Shown: positions 21,543-33,494 of the stretch, in pieces
How positions within the stretch are numbered: the stretch's first letter is position 1
Layout: every line of letters begins with the position of its first letter
NCBI RefSeq assembly: GCF_000934755.1
Contig: NZ_JYNP01000029.1
Span: 1 to 64,000 of the forward strand
DNA length: 64,000 nucleotides
Direction: 5' to 3'
From: Desulfonatronovibrio magnus
Lineage (GTDB): Bacteria > Desulfobacterota > Desulfovibrionia > Desulfovibrionales > Desulfonatronovibrionaceae
The notes under the pieces: model-generated
Seen by the model: only the letters and a program-made list of their open reading frames with translations
Databases searched by the model: none
What the model was told of the DNA's origin: nothing
Program-made: the position numbers and the translations under genes

Positions 21543-22323
21543 TACCTCTGCAGAAGAGTATTAGTAGCTTACAAGTAACTTCAAAAAACTGGACCCCGGA
21601 TCAAGTCCGGGGTGACGGTTAAAGCAAACTATTACTCTTTATTGTCATTCCGGCGAAAGCCGGAATCCAGGTTTTGATGTTAAGAAGCTCCTCACCTGGG
21701 CGGACCGGGACCGAACTTGTGAGTAACTGTTTTTAAAGTGGAGCCTGCATCCTGCAGGCTATTTAACTCCAGGCGGCTGGAAGCCGCCTCCACCTTGAAG
21801 AACAGTCCCATATTTGGAAATTGGGACAGTCCCCGCGAGGTACTATAAAAAAGATTGATGCTGCATTGGTTCCTGGAAAAATTTGCTTAAATGAAAAAAT
21901 TTACACAGCGAGGGACAGTCCCTGTGCCAGGCGCAAAGCTCTCATCTTTGACGGAACTTTTCTGGTAATTGAGAATCAATCATATGTAAAAATCTTAAAA
22001 TTGTGAAAACTATAACCGTCTGATTTTGTTGATAATTTGATTTTAGTTACTTAGAAGCGGCTGGAGCCGCAAGAACTAAACGTCCCCAGGCTGGAGCCTG
22101 GGAACGAGGGGGATAAGTTACTCACACGTTCTGTCCCGGGCGCGCCTTGGTGAGAAGCTTACAAGTTTTATAACCTTGAAAGAGCAATGATGCCCAAGAT
22201 CCTTATTCTTCAGCCTCCAACCTTCAGCCTCCAACCTTCCACCTTCAGCCTCCAACCTCCAACCTTCAGCCTTCAGCCTTATGGCCTTAGGCCTTCAGCC
22301 TAAGGCCAAAGGCACAGCCAGCA
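21543..22323. repeat. Intergenic repeat mosaic between the GT4 gene and the MscS gene
   Basis: 780 bases without genes. It contains, in order: the palindrome CCCCGGATCAAGTCCGGGGTG (21592-21613); the element around CATTCCGGCGAAAGCCGGAAT (about 21645-21666, also at 52380-52400); family D (GGACCGGGACCGAAC, 21690-21730; second copy 22119-22166); a GCCTGCATCCTGCAGGC plus GGCGGCTGGAAGCCGCC double palindrome (21736-21796, inverted at 27364-27420); family B copy 1 (21820-21972); family F (GCGGCTGGAGCCGC, 22057-22112, also 24996-25050); and a degenerate tandem array of CTTCAGCCTCCAAC units (about 22205-22300). Confidence 0.75.
21820..21972 (+). repeat. Family B repeat, copy 1
   Basis: About 150 bases running from the palindrome TTGGGACAGTCCCC to TTGACGGAACTTTTCTGG. 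Matching copies in the opposite orientation lie at 27157-27336 and 32836-32983. All contain two GGGAC[AT]GTCCC palindromes at the same places. Similar short peptides encoded across the copies reflect repeat identity, not a gene. Confidence 0.8.
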
Positions 22324-26824: not shown

Positions 26825-27156
26825 CTGTTTACTACTTACAAGTAACTACAATCGTATGTGCAATAAAATCAAGGTATTATGGTTTTACCATACAGATTGC
26901 TTCTGTCGCTTTGGCTCCATCGTGGGTGAAAGGTTTTCAGCAACTACATCCCTGACAGCTCAGGTGTCATTGCGAGCGAGTCTTCGAGCGCGGCAATCTC
27001 TTACGTGCTAAGGCTGATTTTTTAGTTACTCGCAGGTTCGGTCCCGGTCCCCCCGGATGAAGAGCTTACAAGTAACTACAATCATTTTGATAATAAAATC
27101 AGATGTTTACAGTTTTCATATTTTGACGATTTTTGCTTATGATTGATGCACATTTG

Positions 27157-27336
27157 CCTGAAAAATTCCGTCAAAGATGGGAACTTTGCGCCTGGCACAG
27201 CTTCCTGCCCGGAGGCTTACAGCCCGGAGGGGGACTGTCCCTCGCTGTGTAAATTTTATCATTAAATCAAATTTCTACCTGGAACCAATGCAGCATCAGT
27301 CTTTTTTTATAGTACCTCGCGGGGACTGTCCCAATT
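27157..27336 (-). repeat. Family B repeat, copy 2
   Basis: Opposite in orientation to copy 1 and the same as copy 3 at 32836-32983. It carries the extra 30-bp unit at 27200-27229 that also occurs in family A. Copies 2 and 3 form direct repeats on the two sides of the chaperone operon. Confidence 0.8.
27200..27229 (+). repeat. 30-bp micro-insertion inside family B copy 2
   Basis: One base different from 8733-8762; inserted at the equivalent GGCACA/GGGGACTG junction. The corresponding site in family B copy 3 (around 32880) is empty. Confidence 0.8.
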
Positions 27337-27470
27337 ACCAGAAAAGTGACAGTTCTTCAATGTAGAGGCGGCTTCCAGCCGCCTGGAATTTAATAGCCTG
27401 CAGGATGCAGGCTCCACTTTAAAGACAGTCACCCGCAGGTTCGGTCCCAGGCCGCCCGGGTGAGGCGCTA

Positions 27471-27872
27471 CTAAATATCTTCCGTCTTAAATTCAATTTC
27501 CTGGCTTGAGACTTCATCAAGGATTTCGGTTATCTTTTTCCTGTATTTAGAAACAGCAAGAACGGGTTCCAAGCTGTAAATATCCAAATCAACAGAATAT
27601 CCATCGGCTTGCGAAGATATAGACTCTGAATAATCCTGCATCAGCTTGACCTTCAGGTTATTATCCAATGTAGCTCTTGACAGCTCAGAAATCATTGGGA
27701 ATAGACTGTCCCAGTCCATTTGCAATCGGTCATAAGCTGACTTTATGCGTTTATATTTTTCAGGAAAGTGTTCTGGATGATATCGCATGGAAAGCTTAAC
27801 AAAAGCCTTTCTAACCTTTTCAGGACCATCATCTCTCGACACCCTGAGCGCACTATAGTCTTTTTCAAACAT
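27471..27872 (-). CDS. Small J-domain protein with HPE instead of HPD
   Basis: 133 residues; ATG preceded by AAGGAAAAAAAT. Residues about 5-65 form a J domain (DYSALRVSRDDGPEKVRKAF; helix II VKLSMRY then HPE at residues 32-34; helix III YKRIKSAYDRLQMD). The HPD tripeptide that stimulates Hsp70 ATPase activity is changed to HPE, a conservative D-to-E change that in studied DnaJ proteins weakens stimulation. No G/F-rich, zinc-finger or CTD regions; the C-terminal 65 residues are helical and unrecognised. It is the last gene of a four-gene minus-strand set with Hsp70 and GrpE-like genes, 32 bases after the 709-residue gene. Confidence 0.8.
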   Translation of the reverse strand: MFEKDYSALRVSRDDGPEKVRKAFVKLSMRYHPEHFPEKYKRIKSAYDRLQMDWDSLFPMISELSRATLDNNLKVKLMQDYSESISSQADGYSVDLDIYSLEPVLAVSKYRKKITEILDEVSSQEIEFKTEDI

Positions 27873-27904
27873 ATTTTTTTCCTTGTTGCAACATAATCAC
27901 TTTT

Positions 27905-30034
27905 TTAATCCATTAAAAATCGTATTTTCATTTTCCGAACTGTCTTTTTGGCTCCAGACTTCTTTTTTTGCTTTGCTCCTAAAATTTTTCGGACTTCTTC
28001 TATTGCTTTCTGCAAATCTTTGGAGATATCTTTTCGGTGCAGAAATCCTCTATTTTCCCAAATTTCCAATAGACTGGAAGACAAAGCAGTCAACCTTCTC
28101 TGTTTCAAAATAGATGTCAACAATCTCCATTTTTCATTGATTGTGATGTATTCAGCAAGATGATTAATAACTTTTTTTAGAAAAGTATTGTTGTAGGGTG
28201 ATGACTTCCATTCAAGAATATTCAAAAGCAGCATAAAAAACTGCTTATCAGGTGGAGGATGCAGCAGCAATACTTCAGGGTTTGCGGTTTTTCCGGGTAT
28301 TTTGAAATTGCCTTTTAGCACTTTGCCAAAAAACAGCAATACACCCAAAAGAGGAAAATCTGTGTCTACATCATCTGCAAGTTTTCGCAGCAAGGACGGA
28401 TCAAGCTCGTAAAAACTCAGTTCTGATGAATCATAGTCAAAAACATCATCATCTTTAAAAGTGATATCAAAAAGCTTAGTCACAAAAACATGGACCAACT
28501 CACGATAGTCAGCTGGATCGAGACATAATTTATAGGCAGAAAATACACTTTCCAACTTAATTATATAAAACAGATCATTGGATACCTCATCAATTTCATC
28601 CGATGTCAGCTTGAGAGGCCCCCTTACATCATTGATCTGTTCAATATATTTAATCTTGTCTTTCTTCAGAGAGCTACTTTCAGCCCTTTTCTCAATTATC
28701 GACAGCAGGTATCTATCAGAAAGAGAAGTGCTGCAGACTGTCTGAAGCAGAATGTCCAACTCAGTATCAACATTATTCAATGGATAATCGCTGAGGCTTG
28801 AATGCCAAAACTTAACGGCATTATTCAGGATTGACTTTTCGTTCAGGCCTGAATCAGATACAAGCTTTGCAAGTGTTGTTAGTGCAACGATTTGTTCTCC
28901 AGCATATCTTGCAATTTCTTGTATCTTTGTCTGCTGAATCATAAAACCAAAAACATCATACAAATCAAGAATACATTCACTTAGATACTTTTTTTTGACC
29001 ATTATGTCTGCAATGCAAAATACAATTTTTTCTCTTAATGTCCATACATCATGCTTTATTAATTCATGAAGAATAGAATACGATTTTACGCCCTGTTTTC
29101 TCAAGTCTGTCATTACGTCACACTGCTCGCGCAGGTAGTGAGGCATGGGTATTGAAACAGAAGGTATATAGGATTGCAACAGCATACGCATTGATATTTC
29201 CCAGTTTGAGCCAAGTTTTTGTTTGCCGGCCCAGAGCATAAGGTTTGCTGTTGCTGTTTCTACAGGATGTCCTGAATATTTAAAGTCTTTGTTAATAAGA
29301 TATTTCATAGCTTTTTCTGGCTGCAGGCTATGATAACTTTTAACAAATATATCGCTGCACAACTTGGATAGCAGTGCAACATTCTCAAGAACCTTCAGAG
29401 GAATACCTTCGTTATGAGACGCAGCTTTAGACAGTTCTGAAGCTGCTCTATCAAGTTGTTTACACTGAACTTGCAGGGGAATATCTGAATCTTTCCTTAC
29501 AATTCTTTCAAACGATTTTAAAAACCATGAGGCACGGGCATAATGCTTTTCTCCTTTTCTGGCTCGCTTAAGTTTATCCTGTAAATAGTCATCAAGAGGA
29601 GTGGACTTTCTTTCCTGAAGAAGAGATTTCAGTTTCAAAGCCAGGGCAGCAAATGGTGCAGGCAGTTTATCAGAGCATTTCTCCTCCAGCCCAGGATACC
29701 CAAGGCCATTATAAACATTTATAAGCACATAGAGCACTTCAAGACAACGGACATTTTCAGAAGATAAATTCTCAGATTTACTCAATCCCGCATATGCTCT
29801 TTGAATCCTGGCAATGTTTTTGTCAACAAAGGTAACCTGAAGCAAAAGGTTATAAACTGCAGAATCCCATAACTTAGCAGCAGAGGTTTTCTCGGCTTTT
29901 TCCTTCTGACGCTCATAAAGAGTTATGAACTCCTCCCAAGACTGTTTTTTCCAATATCCATTAAGCTTTGACTCGAGCTTCTGCAGAGGGTTACTTGTTT
30001 TATTTTTTTTGGCTCGTGAGCTTTTTTTAGCCAT
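27905..30034 (-). CDS. Unrecognised 709-residue helical protein in the Hsp70 operon
   Basis: 709 residues. The ATG at 30034 overlaps the Hsp70 stop (TGATG), so translation is coupled; a TTG one codon earlier is the alternative start. Both ends are strongly basic (MAKKSSRAKKNKTSN; KQKKKSGAKKTVRKMK). The body is almost entirely alpha-helical with no signal peptide, membrane segment, P-loop or cysteine motif, and short helix-pair repeats suggest a solenoid. I recognise no family. Its fixed place between an Hsp70 and a J protein suggests a dedicated client, adaptor or scaffold of that chaperone, perhaps binding nucleic acid or ribosomes through the basic tails. This is inference from context only. 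Confidence 0.75.
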   Translation of the reverse strand: MAKKSSRAKKNKTSNPLQKLESKLNGYWKKQSWEEFITLYERQKEKAEKTSAAKLWDSAVYNLLLQVTFVDKNIARIQRAYAGLSKSENLSSENVRCLEVLYVLINVYNGLGYPGLEEKCSDKLPAPFAALALKLKSLLQERKSTPLDDYLQDKLKRARKGEKHYARASWFLKSFERIVRKDSDIPLQVQCKQLDRAASELSKAASHNEGIPLKVLENVALLSKLCSDIFVKSYHSLQPEKAMKYLINKDFKYSGHPVETATANLMLWAGKQKLGSNWEISMRMLLQSYIPSVSIPMPHYLREQCDVMTDLRKQGVKSYSILHELIKHDVWTLREKIVFCIADIMVKKKYLSECILDLYDVFGFMIQQTKIQEIARYAGEQIVALTTLAKLVSDSGLNEKSILNNAVKFWHSSLSDYPLNNVDTELDILLQTVCSTSLSDRYLLSIIEKRAESSSLKKDKIKYIEQINDVRGPLKLTSDEIDEVSNDLFYIIKLESVFSAYKLCLDPADYRELVHVFVTKLFDITFKDDDVFDYDSSELSFYELDPSLLRKLADDVDTDFPLLGVLLFFGKVLKGNFKIPGKTANPEVLLLHPPPDKQFFMLLLNILEWKSSPYNNTFLKKVINHLAEYITINEKWRLLTSILKQRRLTALSSSLLEIWENRGFLHRKDISKDLQKAIEEVRKILGAKQKKKSGAKKTVRKMKIRFLMD

Positions 30035-31773
30035 CAATCACCCCGCTCCTTGAGCTCATCAATATAATCCACAAGGGCTTCTTCAGTCTCGTCCACTAAA
30101 TCCTCATCGTCACCCTTTAAGGCCTTTTCGTAGTCGTGTATCAAGGCCTTCAAGGTATTTTTTTCTGCCTCAGAAGTGAGTTCGTTCAGTGTATCGTAGG
30201 ATTTATGGAGGATATAATTTGTAACCTGGTTATCCTGCTCCTGGGTATCATCCATATCGTCCGGGTCAAAATCATCTTCGTCATCTATAGACAAATCAAA
30301 CTCGAGAAATGATTGACCCCGCAAGGTGCTGTCCAGGTCAACTTCCCGTTTTGCTCCATAACCTTTCTGCTCAACTTTTACACGAATTATACCATTTAAG
30401 TCATAACTGTATTCAATTTCAATAGGTGAATGAGCAGGGCTGGGATGCAATTTAAGGTCAAGGCTTCCTATAAGGGTATTTTCAGAGGGCTCTTTAGACT
30501 CGCCTTGAAACACCTCTACCTTTACCACCTGCTGTTCATCGTGGTTTGTATAAAAGATCTGCGATCTGGTAACCGGAATTTGCGTATTGCGCGGAATTAT
30601 TGGAACACAGATAACCTTGGGTACAAGCTCACTGTAAGACAATGCACTTGCAGATAATGAGTGAGGATTAACATCTATAAGCACCTGATGAATATGCTCA
30701 CCGGTAATGATTCCACCTTGAATAGCCGCCCCCTTGGCAACGCTTAGGTCTGGGTCAATGGGTGGCAGACAGGATGAACCAAAATATCCTTCCAATAAAG
30801 AAATTACCGCTGGAATACGGGTGGAACCTCCCACAAGGAGAACATTCTGAATTTGATCCGCTGTAAGCCCTGATTCTGACAACGCTTTACCTACTTCTTT
30901 TTTGGTGATTTCAAGATAATGCTCGATCATTTCCTCAAACTCACTTCGCTCCAGCTCAAAAAAAAGATCAATTTCAGCATTACCCTGATTGGGTATAAGG
31001 TTTCCTTCAATCCGCGCATAAGGATGGTGGGAAAGATGAATTTTGGCCTGTTCCGCAGCTGCTTTAAGACGGGCTTCAGCAGGTTTGTATCCTCGCAGGT
31101 CTATGCCATGTTCTCTCATTATCCTGGTCATGCATAGTTCCATTATGGTCTGATCAAAATCATCTCCGCCAAGCTTGGTATTACCAGTTGTAGCCAGCAC
31201 TTCATTCAGCTCACCTACCCTGAGAACTGAAACATCAAATGTCCCCCCACCCAGATCATAAACAAGGATATTGCTTTCAATGGTTTCGGACTTCTCATCT
31301 ATCTGCAGATATTTATAAAATAAGGCCGCTGCAGTTGGTTCATTGATGATGCGTTCCACTTTAAGTCCGGCCTCTTCTCCGGCCTTTTGTGTAGCCCTGC
31401 GCTGCGAATCTGAAAAATAAGCAGGCACGGTAATGACCACATTCTTCACTTCTTTGCCGCAAACTTTTTCTGCTTCTGACTTCAAAAAGCTGAGTATATA
31501 TGAAGATATTGTTTCAGGATTATAAAGCTTCTCGCCAATTTTGACTGTTTCGTCAGAACCTATAATCCGCTTGACAGAGCTGATAGTATTCTCAGGATGA
31601 AGAAGCTGGCGATTTTTGGCCCTTAAACCAACAATTATTTCATCCGCCTCAAAACTCACTATAGACGGTACAAGACTGGAATCCTGTATGGCAATCACTT
31701 CAGGCTTACCTTCCTTTAGCATGGAAATGCAGGAATTGGTTGTTCCCAGATCAATTCCGAAAATAGTCTTCAT
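30034..31773 (-). CDS. Specialised Hsp70 (DnaK/HscC-like) chaperone
   Basis: 579 residues, compared with about 630-640 for DnaK and 556 for HscC. All ATPase signatures are present: FGIDLGTTNSCISML (residues 5-19), VYDLGGGTFDVSVL (about 190-203), and VLLVGGSTRIPAV (about 320-332), plus NEPTAAALFY. A substrate-binding beta-domain follows, but the helical lid is short and very acidic (SIDDEDDFDPDDMDDTQEQ), and the EEVD-like end of DnaK is absent. It is therefore a second, specialised Hsp70 rather than the housekeeping DnaK. Partners are encoded around it: GrpE-like upstream, an unknown 709-residue protein and a J protein downstream. No CIRCE element (GAGTGCTAA-type) was seen upstream. Confidence 0.9.
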   Translation of the reverse strand: MKTIFGIDLGTTNSCISMLKEGKPEVIAIQDSSLVPSIVSFEADEIIVGLRAKNRQLLHPENTISSVKRIIGSDETVKIGEKLYNPETISSYILSFLKSEAEKVCGKEVKNVVITVPAYFSDSQRRATQKAGEEAGLKVERIINEPTAAALFYKYLQIDEKSETIESNILVYDLGGGTFDVSVLRVGELNEVLATTGNTKLGGDDFDQTIMELCMTRIMREHGIDLRGYKPAEARLKAAAEQAKIHLSHHPYARIEGNLIPNQGNAEIDLFFELERSEFEEMIEHYLEITKKEVGKALSESGLTADQIQNVLLVGGSTRIPAVISLLEGYFGSSCLPPIDPDLSVAKGAAIQGGIITGEHIHQVLIDVNPHSLSASALSYSELVPKVICVPIIPRNTQIPVTRSQIFYTNHDEQQVVKVEVFQGESKEPSENTLIGSLDLKLHPSPAHSPIEIEYSYDLNGIIRVKVEQKGYGAKREVDLDSTLRGQSFLEFDLSIDDEDDFDPDDMDDTQEQDNQVTNYILHKSYDTLNELTSEAEKNTLKALIHDYEKALKGDDEDLVDETEEALVDYIDELKERGD

Positions 31774-32027
31774 ACACGTTCTCCTGAACCTGAAAGTTAA
31801 AAATTTGAAAAATGAGTTAGATTTACTATGAAACCCTCACATAAAAAAAGAAAGATTGAACCGCGAAAGACACCAAAGGACACAAAAAAGAAAACTCAAA
31901 AGGCAGCATTTTTTCAAAACCGTTACCCGGTTTTCAAAAAACATCCTCGAAAAATGTCTTCAACTTAGTAACCTTCGTATCTTTATGGTTCAATTCTTAG
32001 CTACAGGAAAAAAACACTTTAGAACCA

Positions 32028-32582
32028 TTACGTATCCCTGATAACTGAAAGATACTCGTCTTGAGGGGATACTTTACTGGTCACCACAACCGCCGGCCGA
32101 ACCATTTTCTGACCCACTATAAGCCCGGGACGGACTACTTCAATTACTGTATTCTCAGGGAAAGAGATGTTAACTTGAACATCACAGGCCTGATGTCTAA
32201 CATCATCAAAAGGTTGATGAAGATCCAAGATGAGTTGAACATTCAACTCATGGAGCAGAGTTTCAAGCTTGAGCCATAGTTGACATAAAGTCTGATCTTT
32301 CTCGTGATTTCGCAGATAATAGATGGCAAAATTTTCAGCAAATGACATGAAACCCTCATACTGCGGGCCGGAAATAAGAAGTTCCTGCATCTTATCCATC
32401 TTGGAGCCAAGTTCTACAAGCATTCTTTCAAAAGCCTGAGCCTGACGTCTTTCCCGCTTTTGCAGGTTACGAATCATTTCTTCCACCATCTGAAACTCAG
32501 TTGGCTCTGTTTCTTCTATCTCTACTTCTTTTTCTTCAGCTTTGTTTTTTAACGGAGACAATATTTTTGACCAGAATGACAT
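32028..32582 (-). CDS. Divergent GrpE-like nucleotide-exchange factor
   Basis: 184 residues, ATG after AAAGGTAAGAT. An acidic N-terminal coiled coil (KNKAEEKEVEIEETEPTEF; then MVEEMIRNLQKRERRQAQAF) is followed by helices and a C-terminal beta-wing (VIEVVRPGLIVGQKMVRPA, then VVVTSK) that matches the GrpE C-terminus (VxxVxxxGYxxxxRxLRPAxVxVSK) well. Overall similarity to GrpE is low and the middle is not recognisable, so the assignment rests on topology, the final beta domain and the adjacent Hsp70 gene. It is the first gene of the operon, 254 bases upstream of Hsp70. A role as ADP-release factor dedicated to this Hsp70 is inferred. Confidence 0.7.
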   Translation of the reverse strand: MSFWSKILSPLKNKAEEKEVEIEETEPTEFQMVEEMIRNLQKRERRQAQAFERMLVELGSKMDKMQELLISGPQYEGFMSFAENFAIYYLRNHEKDQTLCQLWLKLETLLHELNVQLILDLHQPFDDVRHQACDVQVNISFPENTVIEVVRPGLIVGQKMVRPAVVVTSKVSPQDEYLSVIRDT

Positions 32583-33494
32583 ATCTTACCTTTGATTCAA
32601 ATATTTAATGAAGTTTTCTACCGTCAGTACTGCCCTTGAGCCACAAATAAGTAATATTCTGTAAGGCAACACCGGAATTTTCAGAAAAGTGACAGATTCG
32701 TAAAGTTACTCGCAGGTTCGGTCCCGGGCCGCCCGGGTGAAGAGCTTACAAGTAACTGCAATCGTTTTGCCAGTAAAATCAGACATTTACATTTTTCAGG
32801 TTTTTACTATTTTTGCTTATGATTCATGCACATTTGCCAGAAAAGTTCCGTCAAAGATGGGAACTTTGCGCTTGGCACAGGGACTGTCCCTCGCTATGTA
32901 AATTTTTTCATTAAAACCGATTTTTGCCAGAAACCAATGCAGTATCAAACTTTTTAACGTTTCCTCGCGGGGACTGTCCCAATGTCCATAGAGGAGACTC
33001 ATTTTCAGTTACTCACACGTTCGGTCCCGCTCCCCCCGGGTGAGGAGCTTACATAATCATAATTGCACGCAAGAATTTTACCTGCATAAACAAAACGCTA
33101 AGTCCAGTATTTGTAAATCAACATGTTTTTTTTTTGACGTTGCGTATCTGATTTCCATCTTAAACGCAATCTATTGAAATCTTCATTTTTTATTGTAGTG
33201 ACTTACCGCTTCAATTTGTAACAAAAAAAACAAGAAAATTCTGAACACACAAGACCACTAATGCCGGCTGTGCCCACACCCCATATTAAACAAAAATAGT
33301 TAAGTTGTGGCGATAACTTGACTTTTAAGTCTTCAGTCTTCAGCCTGACTTTTGCTGCTAACCCCCAACTTAACAATACTTGCTTAAGTTGGGTTGCGGG
33401 AAAAAGCCACTTTTGATAACAGACTTTGAAACAATTGCTGAACATATTACCCGTTTTTCTCTCGGAGGAATCCAGGAAATTAAAAGGAGGAATA
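32583..33494. repeat. Intergenic repeat cluster between the chaperone operon and the E1 genes
   Basis: About 900 bases without a supported gene. Contains family D copies at 32703-32764 and 33007-33052 enclosing family B copy 3 (32836-32983), then 430 bases of AT-rich sequence including a T9 run at 33126 and the region upstream of the E1-alpha gene. The minus-strand side must hold the chaperone-operon promoter and the plus-strand side the E1 promoter, but no clear -35/-10 pair stands out. Confidence 0.65.
32836..32983 (-). repeat. Family B repeat, copy 3
   Basis: Same orientation as copy 2 (27157-27336), lacking the 30-bp unit. It shares with the other copies the block TCCGTCAAAGATGGGAACTT and the palindrome GGGGACTGTCCC at both ends. 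Confidence 0.8.

Follow-up and report, generated by a model that had tools for sequence, protein, structure and literature searches.

A conserved four-gene set encodes a divergent Hsp70, its candidate co-chaperones and a large predicted helical solenoid in Desulfonatronovibrio magnus and other bacteria

We analyzed a 64,000-nucleotide stretch of the Desulfonatronovibrio magnus genome (contig NZ_JYNP01000029.1, positions 1 to 64,000; hereafter the window), in which four minus-strand genes at positions 27471-32582 encode a GrpE-like protein, a divergent Hsp70, a 709-residue all-helical protein and a small J-domain protein (Table 1). We refer to the three chaperone-related products as GrpE', Hsp70' and J'. 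Judged by how their genes recur together in other genomes, GrpE', Hsp70', J' and the 709-residue protein are one conserved gene set. The ATG of the 709-residue protein gene shares one base with the stop codon of the Hsp70' gene (TGATG), 32 bases separate the 709-residue protein gene from that of J', and 254 bases lie between the GrpE' and Hsp70' genes; because of this last gap, we consider a single transcript covering all four genes likely and no more than that. The set is AT-rich, with 36-43% GC vs 44-52% around it. An earlier note, made from the sequence alone, had described the four open reading frames, the overlap of start and stop codons, a J protein in which HPE replaces HPD and a divergent GrpE-like protein, all of which our analysis bore out.

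Table 1. Features of the four-gene set and its flanks in the window (pLDDT, predicted local distance difference test score).
Feature	Positions	Strand	Evidence
GrpE', GrpE-like nucleotide exchange factor, 184 aa	32028..32582	-	Pfam GrpE E 5.7e-10
Hsp70', Hsp70, 579 aa	30034..31773	-	Pfam HSP70 E 1.1e-134; type A clade in two trees
Acidic tether of Hsp70', disordered, residues 492-518	30220..30300	-	pLDDT <50; DnaK alignment
Three-helix bundle of Hsp70', residues 520-576, lid remainder	30046..30216	-	Model helices 520-531, 535-553, 557-576
709-aa all-helical solenoid partner	27905..30034	-	AlphaFold2 mean pLDDT 80.4, 35 helices; found in 37 genomes
K/R-rich N-terminal tail of the 709-aa protein, residues 1-13	29996..30034	-	Net +6 in 15 residues; residues 1-11 pLDDT <50
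J', small J-domain protein, 133 aa	27471..27872	-	Pfam DnaJ E 3.4e-07; J' profile vs solved J domains
HPE replacing HPD in J', residues 32-34	27771..27779	-	Sequence
Interspersed repeat, downstream copy	27024..27359	.	177-, 76- and 57-nt blocks recurring 5.65-5.68 kb away
Interspersed repeat, upstream copy	32704..33053	.	Block comparison with downstream copy

The earlier note had proposed asking whether the four genes are conserved together, whether the 709-residue protein occurs mostly without the chaperone genes, and whether the gene order is private to this genome. After joining our searches and removing duplicates, we found the 709-residue protein in 37 genomes (12 Desulfovibrionales, 20 Synergistota, one Adiutrix and four 'Deltaproteobacteria'). 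Its gene adjoins the Hsp70' gene in 35 of these, and the two genomes in which it stands without an Hsp70 gene (loci L126 and L131; L and G numbers are our handles for loci and genomes) end their contig on that side. All four genes lie on one contig in 29 of the 37 genomes, the remaining eight being interrupted by contig ends; at L069, the 367 bases upstream of J' are insufficient for a GrpE' gene. Sets with this partner, which we call type A, show two gene orders: GrpE'-Hsp70'-709-J' in the window and its close relatives, and GrpE'-J'-Hsp70'-709 elsewhere. As the first of these recurs in other genomes, the order is not a product of chance.

The distribution of the set is patchy. A profile of the 709-residue protein matched 13 of 348 genomes of the order Desulfovibrionales (12 after removal of one spurious match), with set loci in Desulfonatronospira, Desulfonatronum, Desulfoplanes and Desulfovibrio, and 8 of 297 genomes in a sample of the class, every one of which belongs to Desulfovibrionales. 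In Synergistota, the phylum of G356, the protein is present in 19 of 185 genomes. A scan of GTDB species genomes with a J' profile gave 22 loci in Desulfovibrionales, Candidatus Adiutrix, Synergistaceae/Synergistales, 'Deltaproteobacteria' and one 'Proteobacteria'; 17 of them hold all four genes, four are cut by contig ends, and L071 carries a set of another type. The spurious match was that of G007, which spans 58 residues of a 144-residue frame at E 8.6e-4, with no other set gene found nearby; G417 (E 6.1e-4) has no set at its locus. Six duplicate pairs were counted once (L018/L050, L021/L065, L037/L067, L038/L068, L058/L123 and L051/L099), as were two pairs that are two contigs of one genome each (L022/L062 and L060/L132); apart from the similar genes of L017 and L050, which belong to distinct genomes, the check revealed no further 709-residue protein genes in common. 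The patchy distribution over phyla suggests horizontal transfer of the set across them.

The set coexists with a general chaperone system. The D. magnus genome encodes a separate canonical DnaK elsewhere, and 18 of 19 other genomes searched contain an Hsp70 match of at least 690 bits; the nineteenth (G348) yielded only Hsp70' and fragments, and the L054 genome lay outside this search. The view of the earlier note that the locus encodes a complete specialized chaperone system is upheld in that a dedicated Hsp70, GrpE, J and large-partner set is conserved across phyla and, in the D. magnus genome, accompanies a canonical DnaK; its contrast with Escherichia coli HscC did not hold, as discussed below. 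Four sets have other chaperone genes in their flanks (grpE-dnaK at L017, ClpB at L037, GroEL at L051 and dnaJ-dnaJ-dnaK at L057), a proximity that we take as a hint only, given without a computed expectation.

Hsp70' matches the Pfam HSP70 family well above its gathering threshold (450.3 bits vs 20.6) and falls under the NCBIfam equivalog cut-off for DnaK (TIGR02350, 474.8 bits vs 822.55) and the cut-off for HscA (TIGR01991, 374.4 bits vs 708.55). The catalytic residues that we checked are kept. Across a 43-row alignment of Hsp70' proteins, which omits L040 (score below the limit and N runs in the frame), the counterparts of DnaK R167, N170, E217, V218 and D393 are retained in every row, and T173 is threonine in 41 rows and serine in two; we take these six residues to be J-domain contacts. 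The linker residue V389 of DnaK is valine or isoleucine in four HscC proteins, and in all 43 Hsp70' rows its position holds Q, H, R, S or A. Both the alignment to DnaK and an AlphaFold2 model indicate that helix A and the first half of helix B of the DnaK lid are absent from Hsp70'; in the model, residues 492-518 have pLDDT values <50 and are followed by a three-helix bundle at residues 520-576. The acidic C-terminus described in the earlier note is present as an acidic stretch, but lies mainly in an internal tether (residues ~492-518) ahead of the helical bundle. Among 32 type A rows, this tether contains 7-24 aspartate and glutamate residues in 35-72 aligned residues.

J' comprises little beyond a J domain (Pfam DnaJ, 30.7 bits vs a cut-off of 27.8), with a short tail after it, and the J' profile matches J domains in the PDB (best E 5.2e-10). 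We compared the motif at the HPD position in 34 J' proteins (33 of type A and that of L071) and found PPE in 28, HPE in three (the window, L017 and L050), PPQ in three and HPD in none. The J' loop is six residues shorter than that of DnaJ and aligns without gaps to the loops of E. coli DjlB and DjlC, which carry HPE. According to the available part of a 2026 review (PMC13254874), HPN and QPD changes abolish Hsp70 stimulation, and HPE, as in DjlB/DjlC, seems to be the sole tolerated change. By analogy with DjlB/DjlC, the J' protein of the window may be functional. GrpE' reaches the Pfam GrpE family (39.5 bits vs a cut-off of 25.8) and not the NCBIfam GrpE equivalog cut-offs; an FDD.RH..CD loop is found in all five aligned rows, including the window, and is altered in the f5 relatives.

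The 709-residue protein matches no family in the collections that we scanned, and the earlier note had recognized none for it either. For the protein of the window, the best Pfam match was UME at E 0.6, and NCBIfam and PADLOC gave nothing; these scans covered 19 members with Pfam, three with NCBIfam and the window alone with PADLOC. Pfam assigned no family to the 19 members, with no match at E 0.1 for the first and eight families matched by one member each, the best at 0.017. A sequence search of the PDB returned only PDCD10 (E 0.081). An AlphaFold2 model built from 19 sequences has a mean pLDDT of 80.4, a predicted template modelling score (pTM) of 0.58 and 35 helices, and on this model the protein is best called an alpha-solenoid, its repeat type being left without assignment. 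When the model was searched with Foldseek, none of the 591 matches listed was at E <=0.001. In VIA-align, whose rows span mostly residues 16-506, designed repeats and CRM1 were matched with a top Z score of 10.7 (144 residues); such scores are common for helical repeats. We make no assignment among the TPR, HEAT and HAT repeats, as no repeat family was singled out by Pfam, Foldseek or VIA-align. The absence of a relative from the PDB lists is no evidence for a new fold. The profile-profile and structure analyses advocated in the earlier note thus produced a helical solenoid model and support for kinship with the partner of a related set (below), but no family. Most complete partners have a basic N-terminus, with a net charge of +5 to +11 in 15 residues. 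The partner at L064 (4228-5865), 546 residues as called, ends in an acidic tail unlike the others (net charge of -34 over its final 40 residues), a possible assembly or frame problem.

Related sets combine similar chaperone genes with other partners. With a threshold of E 1e-8, at least 117 of the 297 genomes scanned in the phylum gave matches to the J' profile, and we read 15 of the neighborhoods; most other matches are frames of 300-400 residues, the size of ordinary DnaJ. Two of the 15 (L112, L115) hold an HPD J protein without a set, and L099 is the type A set of Adiutrix. Type B sets (L102, L103, L104, L105 and L107) have the gene order of the window, GrpE-Hsp70-X-J, where X is 672-692 residues in the four complete cases and gave no Pfam assignment in either of the two scanned. 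Type C sets (L100, L101, L106 and L108-L111) are ordered X-J-GrpE-Hsp70 where complete, with an X of 823-894 residues that contains TPR matches in all three cases tested. Their GrpE is recognized in four of seven (L100, L101, L110 and L111), and an unmatched frame of 248-299 residues occupies that place in L106, L108 and L109. Type D (L071 and the near-identical L113) is ordered GrpE-Hsp70-X-J, with an X of 628 residues and a GrpE that scores 18.8 bits vs the Pfam cut-off of 25.8. The J motifs of type C are PPE, PPD, SPE or SPD. As side observations, type B partners are basic at both ends where complete; a protein of ~100 residues with CPAC and CxxCGC motifs follows in four of seven type C sets; and some type C partners end in QLNLF or QQNLF and then D, which presumably resembles a beta-clamp motif.

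In two unrooted trees, the Hsp70 proteins of types A, B and C each form one group. Types A, B and D fall together (support 100/100 and 100/99) and are joined by type C (86/74 and 94/91), with HscC and DnaK opposite types A-D; the second tree was built without HscA. By score and by tree, Hsp70' is neither DnaK nor HscC. The tether position holds 25-28 residues in type B, where it is not markedly acidic, and 51-62 residues in type C, which may keep a helix. When we compared partner profiles with hhalign, types A and B scored 37.2 over 423 columns, compared with at most 26.1 and at most 123 columns in 60 block-shuffles; the probability given by the program is 13.9%. These values support a shared origin for the A and B partners and for no other pair. 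Types A and C scored 40.1, barely above a shuffle maximum of 39.0. Nothing was detected between B and C (28.7), or between D and any of A, B or C (scores of 21-27, obtained without a shuffle control).

The set sits between copies of an interspersed repeat of ~340 bases, which contains GGGACTGTCCC palindromes and a GGGACCGAACCTGCGAGTAACT core and has further pieces at window positions 21707-21728 and 22116-22137. We rejected these copies as specific evidence for the ends of a mobile element, because the genome contains at least 97 matching pieces across many contigs, some of them closely spaced (40 of 435 candidate places were scored). A tblastn search of phage and plasmid collections with the 709-residue protein (limit E 1e-5) returned nothing, a search that remote relatives could escape; the J' profile gave 14 pattern matches and no confirmed relative among viral contigs; and the sole PADLOC defence match was PDC-M40A on GrpE' (E 0.013). 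Scans for promoters (15 found vs 14.3 expected) and terminators (2 found vs 5.8 expected) support no conclusion.

From the conservation documented above, we infer a mechanism, its physical interactions and its client included. The reading that we favor, with about as much confidence as doubt, is that the set is a client-dedicated Hsp70 machine, probably spread by horizontal transfer, in which the solenoid is the client-binding, adaptor or scaffold subunit. The solenoid would recruit a particular client or surface and pass the client to Hsp70', whose shortened, tethered lid could act on a bulky or folded target. J' would stimulate or position Hsp70' through a re-tuned linker contact, in which position 389 is polar or small instead of valine or isoleucine, and GrpE' would reset Hsp70'. 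A docking site for the solenoid's basic tail may be provided by the acidic tether of Hsp70'. We assign the role of client-selecting adaptor or scaffold to the partner because it varies the most (13-28% identity to the window protein, vs 37-59% for Hsp70'), as expected of a variable recognition part, and because in the other types this position is taken by different large partners. In types B, C and D, too, a large partner with a basic N-terminus accompanies an Hsp70 of this kind and an altered J protein.

Several observations weigh against this reading. The solenoid fold points to no function, since the Foldseek search of the PDB gave nothing at E <=0.001. Those J' proteins that carry PPE or PPQ, 31 of 34, may not stimulate Hsp70' at all, because HPE seems to be the only tolerated change and the accessible part of the review offers no precedent for the other two (PMC13254874). 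As called, the partners at L064 (+4) and L066 (0) lack a strongly basic tail, and similarly basic stretches (+4 to +7 in 15 residues) occur elsewhere in many partners. Pairing of tail and tether is not universal either, as type B partners have basic tails despite their short, not markedly acidic tethers. Finally, a conserved neighbor could be the client rather than an adaptor.

Taken further, this last point gives an account in which the 709-residue protein is an obligate client, and the Hsp70, J and GrpE proteins fold or assemble one aggregation-prone solenoid that has another job in the cell. The one-base overlap with the Hsp70' gene, the adjacency of the two genes wherever the contig allows it and the fast divergence of the 709-residue protein are all consistent with this account. 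However, the related types pair the chaperone genes with partners of other lengths or repeat types that again have a basic N-terminus, which suggests a constant partner role next to the chaperone, and we consider the obligate-client account unlikely.

A different division of labor would make J' a pseudo-J (type IV) protein that holds Hsp70' inactive or assembled, by analogy with Pam16 and Pam18, and would leave the stimulation of Hsp70' to a canonical J protein with HPD. Such an arrangement would fit the lack of HPD in all 34 J' proteins compared, the intact J-docking residues of Hsp70' and the HPD J genes near the sets at L020, L021 and L057. At two of these loci, an HPD J protein of 272-275 residues is encoded directly upstream of the set (L020, 12921-13748; L021/L065, 1375-2193), and there the canonical J protein may serve Hsp70'. 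We nevertheless doubt this explanation, since the J' of the window carries HPE, a change reported in the available text as tolerated in DjlB/DjlC (PMC13254874), and no HPD J gene was found in most of the flanks examined, although these flanks are short.

Charged regions anchor eukaryotic ribosome-associated chaperones, and the basic tail of the solenoid could likewise tether Hsp70' to ribosomes, RNA or DNA. The basic N-terminus of most type A partners and of the complete type B, C and D partners would suit an anchor of this kind, as would the spliceosome proteins among the weak top fold matches; but those matches have E values >0.001 of the kind that long solenoids typically give, the tail is short, and comparably basic stretches lie elsewhere in the partners, so that we regard tethering as quite improbable.

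Comparison with the HscC system brings out both resemblance and difference. Like our set, E. coli HscC is a specialized short Hsp70 encoded beside its own J proteins. The accessible part of its description (PMC8215388) lists a length of 550-580 residues, a deletion at positions 76-101 of the nucleotide-binding domain (NBD), the absence of the GrpE signature, an insertion in L1,2 of the beta part of the substrate-binding domain (SBD-beta) and a nine-residue deletion in helix B. Hsp70' has a matching length, the NBD deletion, which that source also reports in many DnaKs outside proteobacteria and which is thus a weak criterion, and an L1,2 insertion within the 4-8 residue range (seven residues in the window and four in E. 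coli HscC, relative to DnaK). The GrpE-signature loop (DnaK 290-295) is shortened by six residues in E. coli HscC, but its length is retained in all nine type A rows, including the window, with residues that differ from those of DnaK; in five of six type C rows it is four residues shorter. In place of a nine-residue helix B deletion, Hsp70' has a disordered tether instead of helix A and half of helix B. The four HscC rows form their own group (100/99) apart from types A-D (94/91) in the unrooted tree. The HscC-like size pointed out in the earlier note is real, but size does not make Hsp70' an HscC, since tree and loop length separate the two.

That note had set the locus apart from HscC, and overlooked that DjlB and DjlC, the J partners of E. 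coli HscC, share the HPE motif (PMC13254874, available part) and the short J loop with the J' of the window, although most relatives of J' have PPE. DjlB and DjlC differ from J' in that their J domain is fused to ~420 further residues, and E. coli HscC differs from the set in having no GrpE gene in the 10 kb examined. Two plasmid HscC loci, in Rahnella (L120, 5001-8635), where two J-domain proteins are adjacent, and in Duffyella (L121, 4980-8056), have J proteins with RPD and a similarly short loop. That our set is an HscC system in disguise, with an HscC relative, a DjlB/DjlC-like J protein split into J' and solenoid, and an equal job, is very unlikely, because the J motif, J loop, length, NBD deletion and L1,2 insertion that would favor it are outweighed by the separation in the tree, the retained GrpE-loop length and the hhalign score of the 709-residue family against the non-J part of DjlB/DjlC (15.5 vs a shuffle maximum of 22.5; partners of types A-D each scored under their own maximum).

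Other systems resemble the set in part. Canonical DnaK-DnaJ-GrpE shares its three component families, J-docking residues and GrpE-loop length, but has a full lid and an HPD J protein; our set adds the solenoid, and both coexist in this genome. Myxococcus xanthus MxDnaK2 is an Hsp70 paralogue that forms a two-gene operon with GrpE, for which the accessible text names no solenoid partner or altered J gene (PMC11019930), a distinction by description only. In Nostoc, DnaK1 is an additional DnaK that works with GrpE and its own matched J protein, DnaJ3, in a dedicated role connected with type IV pili and polysaccharide; dnaK1 lies between grpE and dnaJ11, the matched DnaJ3 is not the neighboring J protein, and the available part describes no adjacent solenoid (PMC9239167). 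Type IV J-domain proteins such as Pam16 also have a J domain with a replaced HPD (PMC13254874, in part), but J' is bacterial, and its gene accompanies that of a divergent Hsp70. We found no paper describing this set in the literature searched, partly in abridged form; most subscription papers fall outside it, so unpublished status does not follow.

A bolder proposal, which we put forward tentatively and think unlikely in full, is that the client-dedicated machine represents a further bacterial Hsp70 class beside DnaK, HscA and HscC. In such a class the Hsp70 would have lost most of its lid, and the client would be held in trans by the solenoid, perhaps with lid closure through the basic tail and acidic tether; a J protein without HPD would work through a co-evolved contact between the PPE or HPE loop and a polar or small residue at position 389 of the interdomain linker; and types A-D would be one design with interchangeable partners.

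The general view is that Hsp70 action requires both a J protein with HPD and a lid that closes. A conserved set that has HPD in none of 34 J proteins, a cut-down lid and, wherever the contig allows, an adjoining solenoid gene is a natural test of both rules, and it may show how an Hsp70 becomes committed to a single task. The set would also suggest what is done by a protein family of patchy distribution for which Pfam, NCBIfam and PADLOC had no model in the members scanned.

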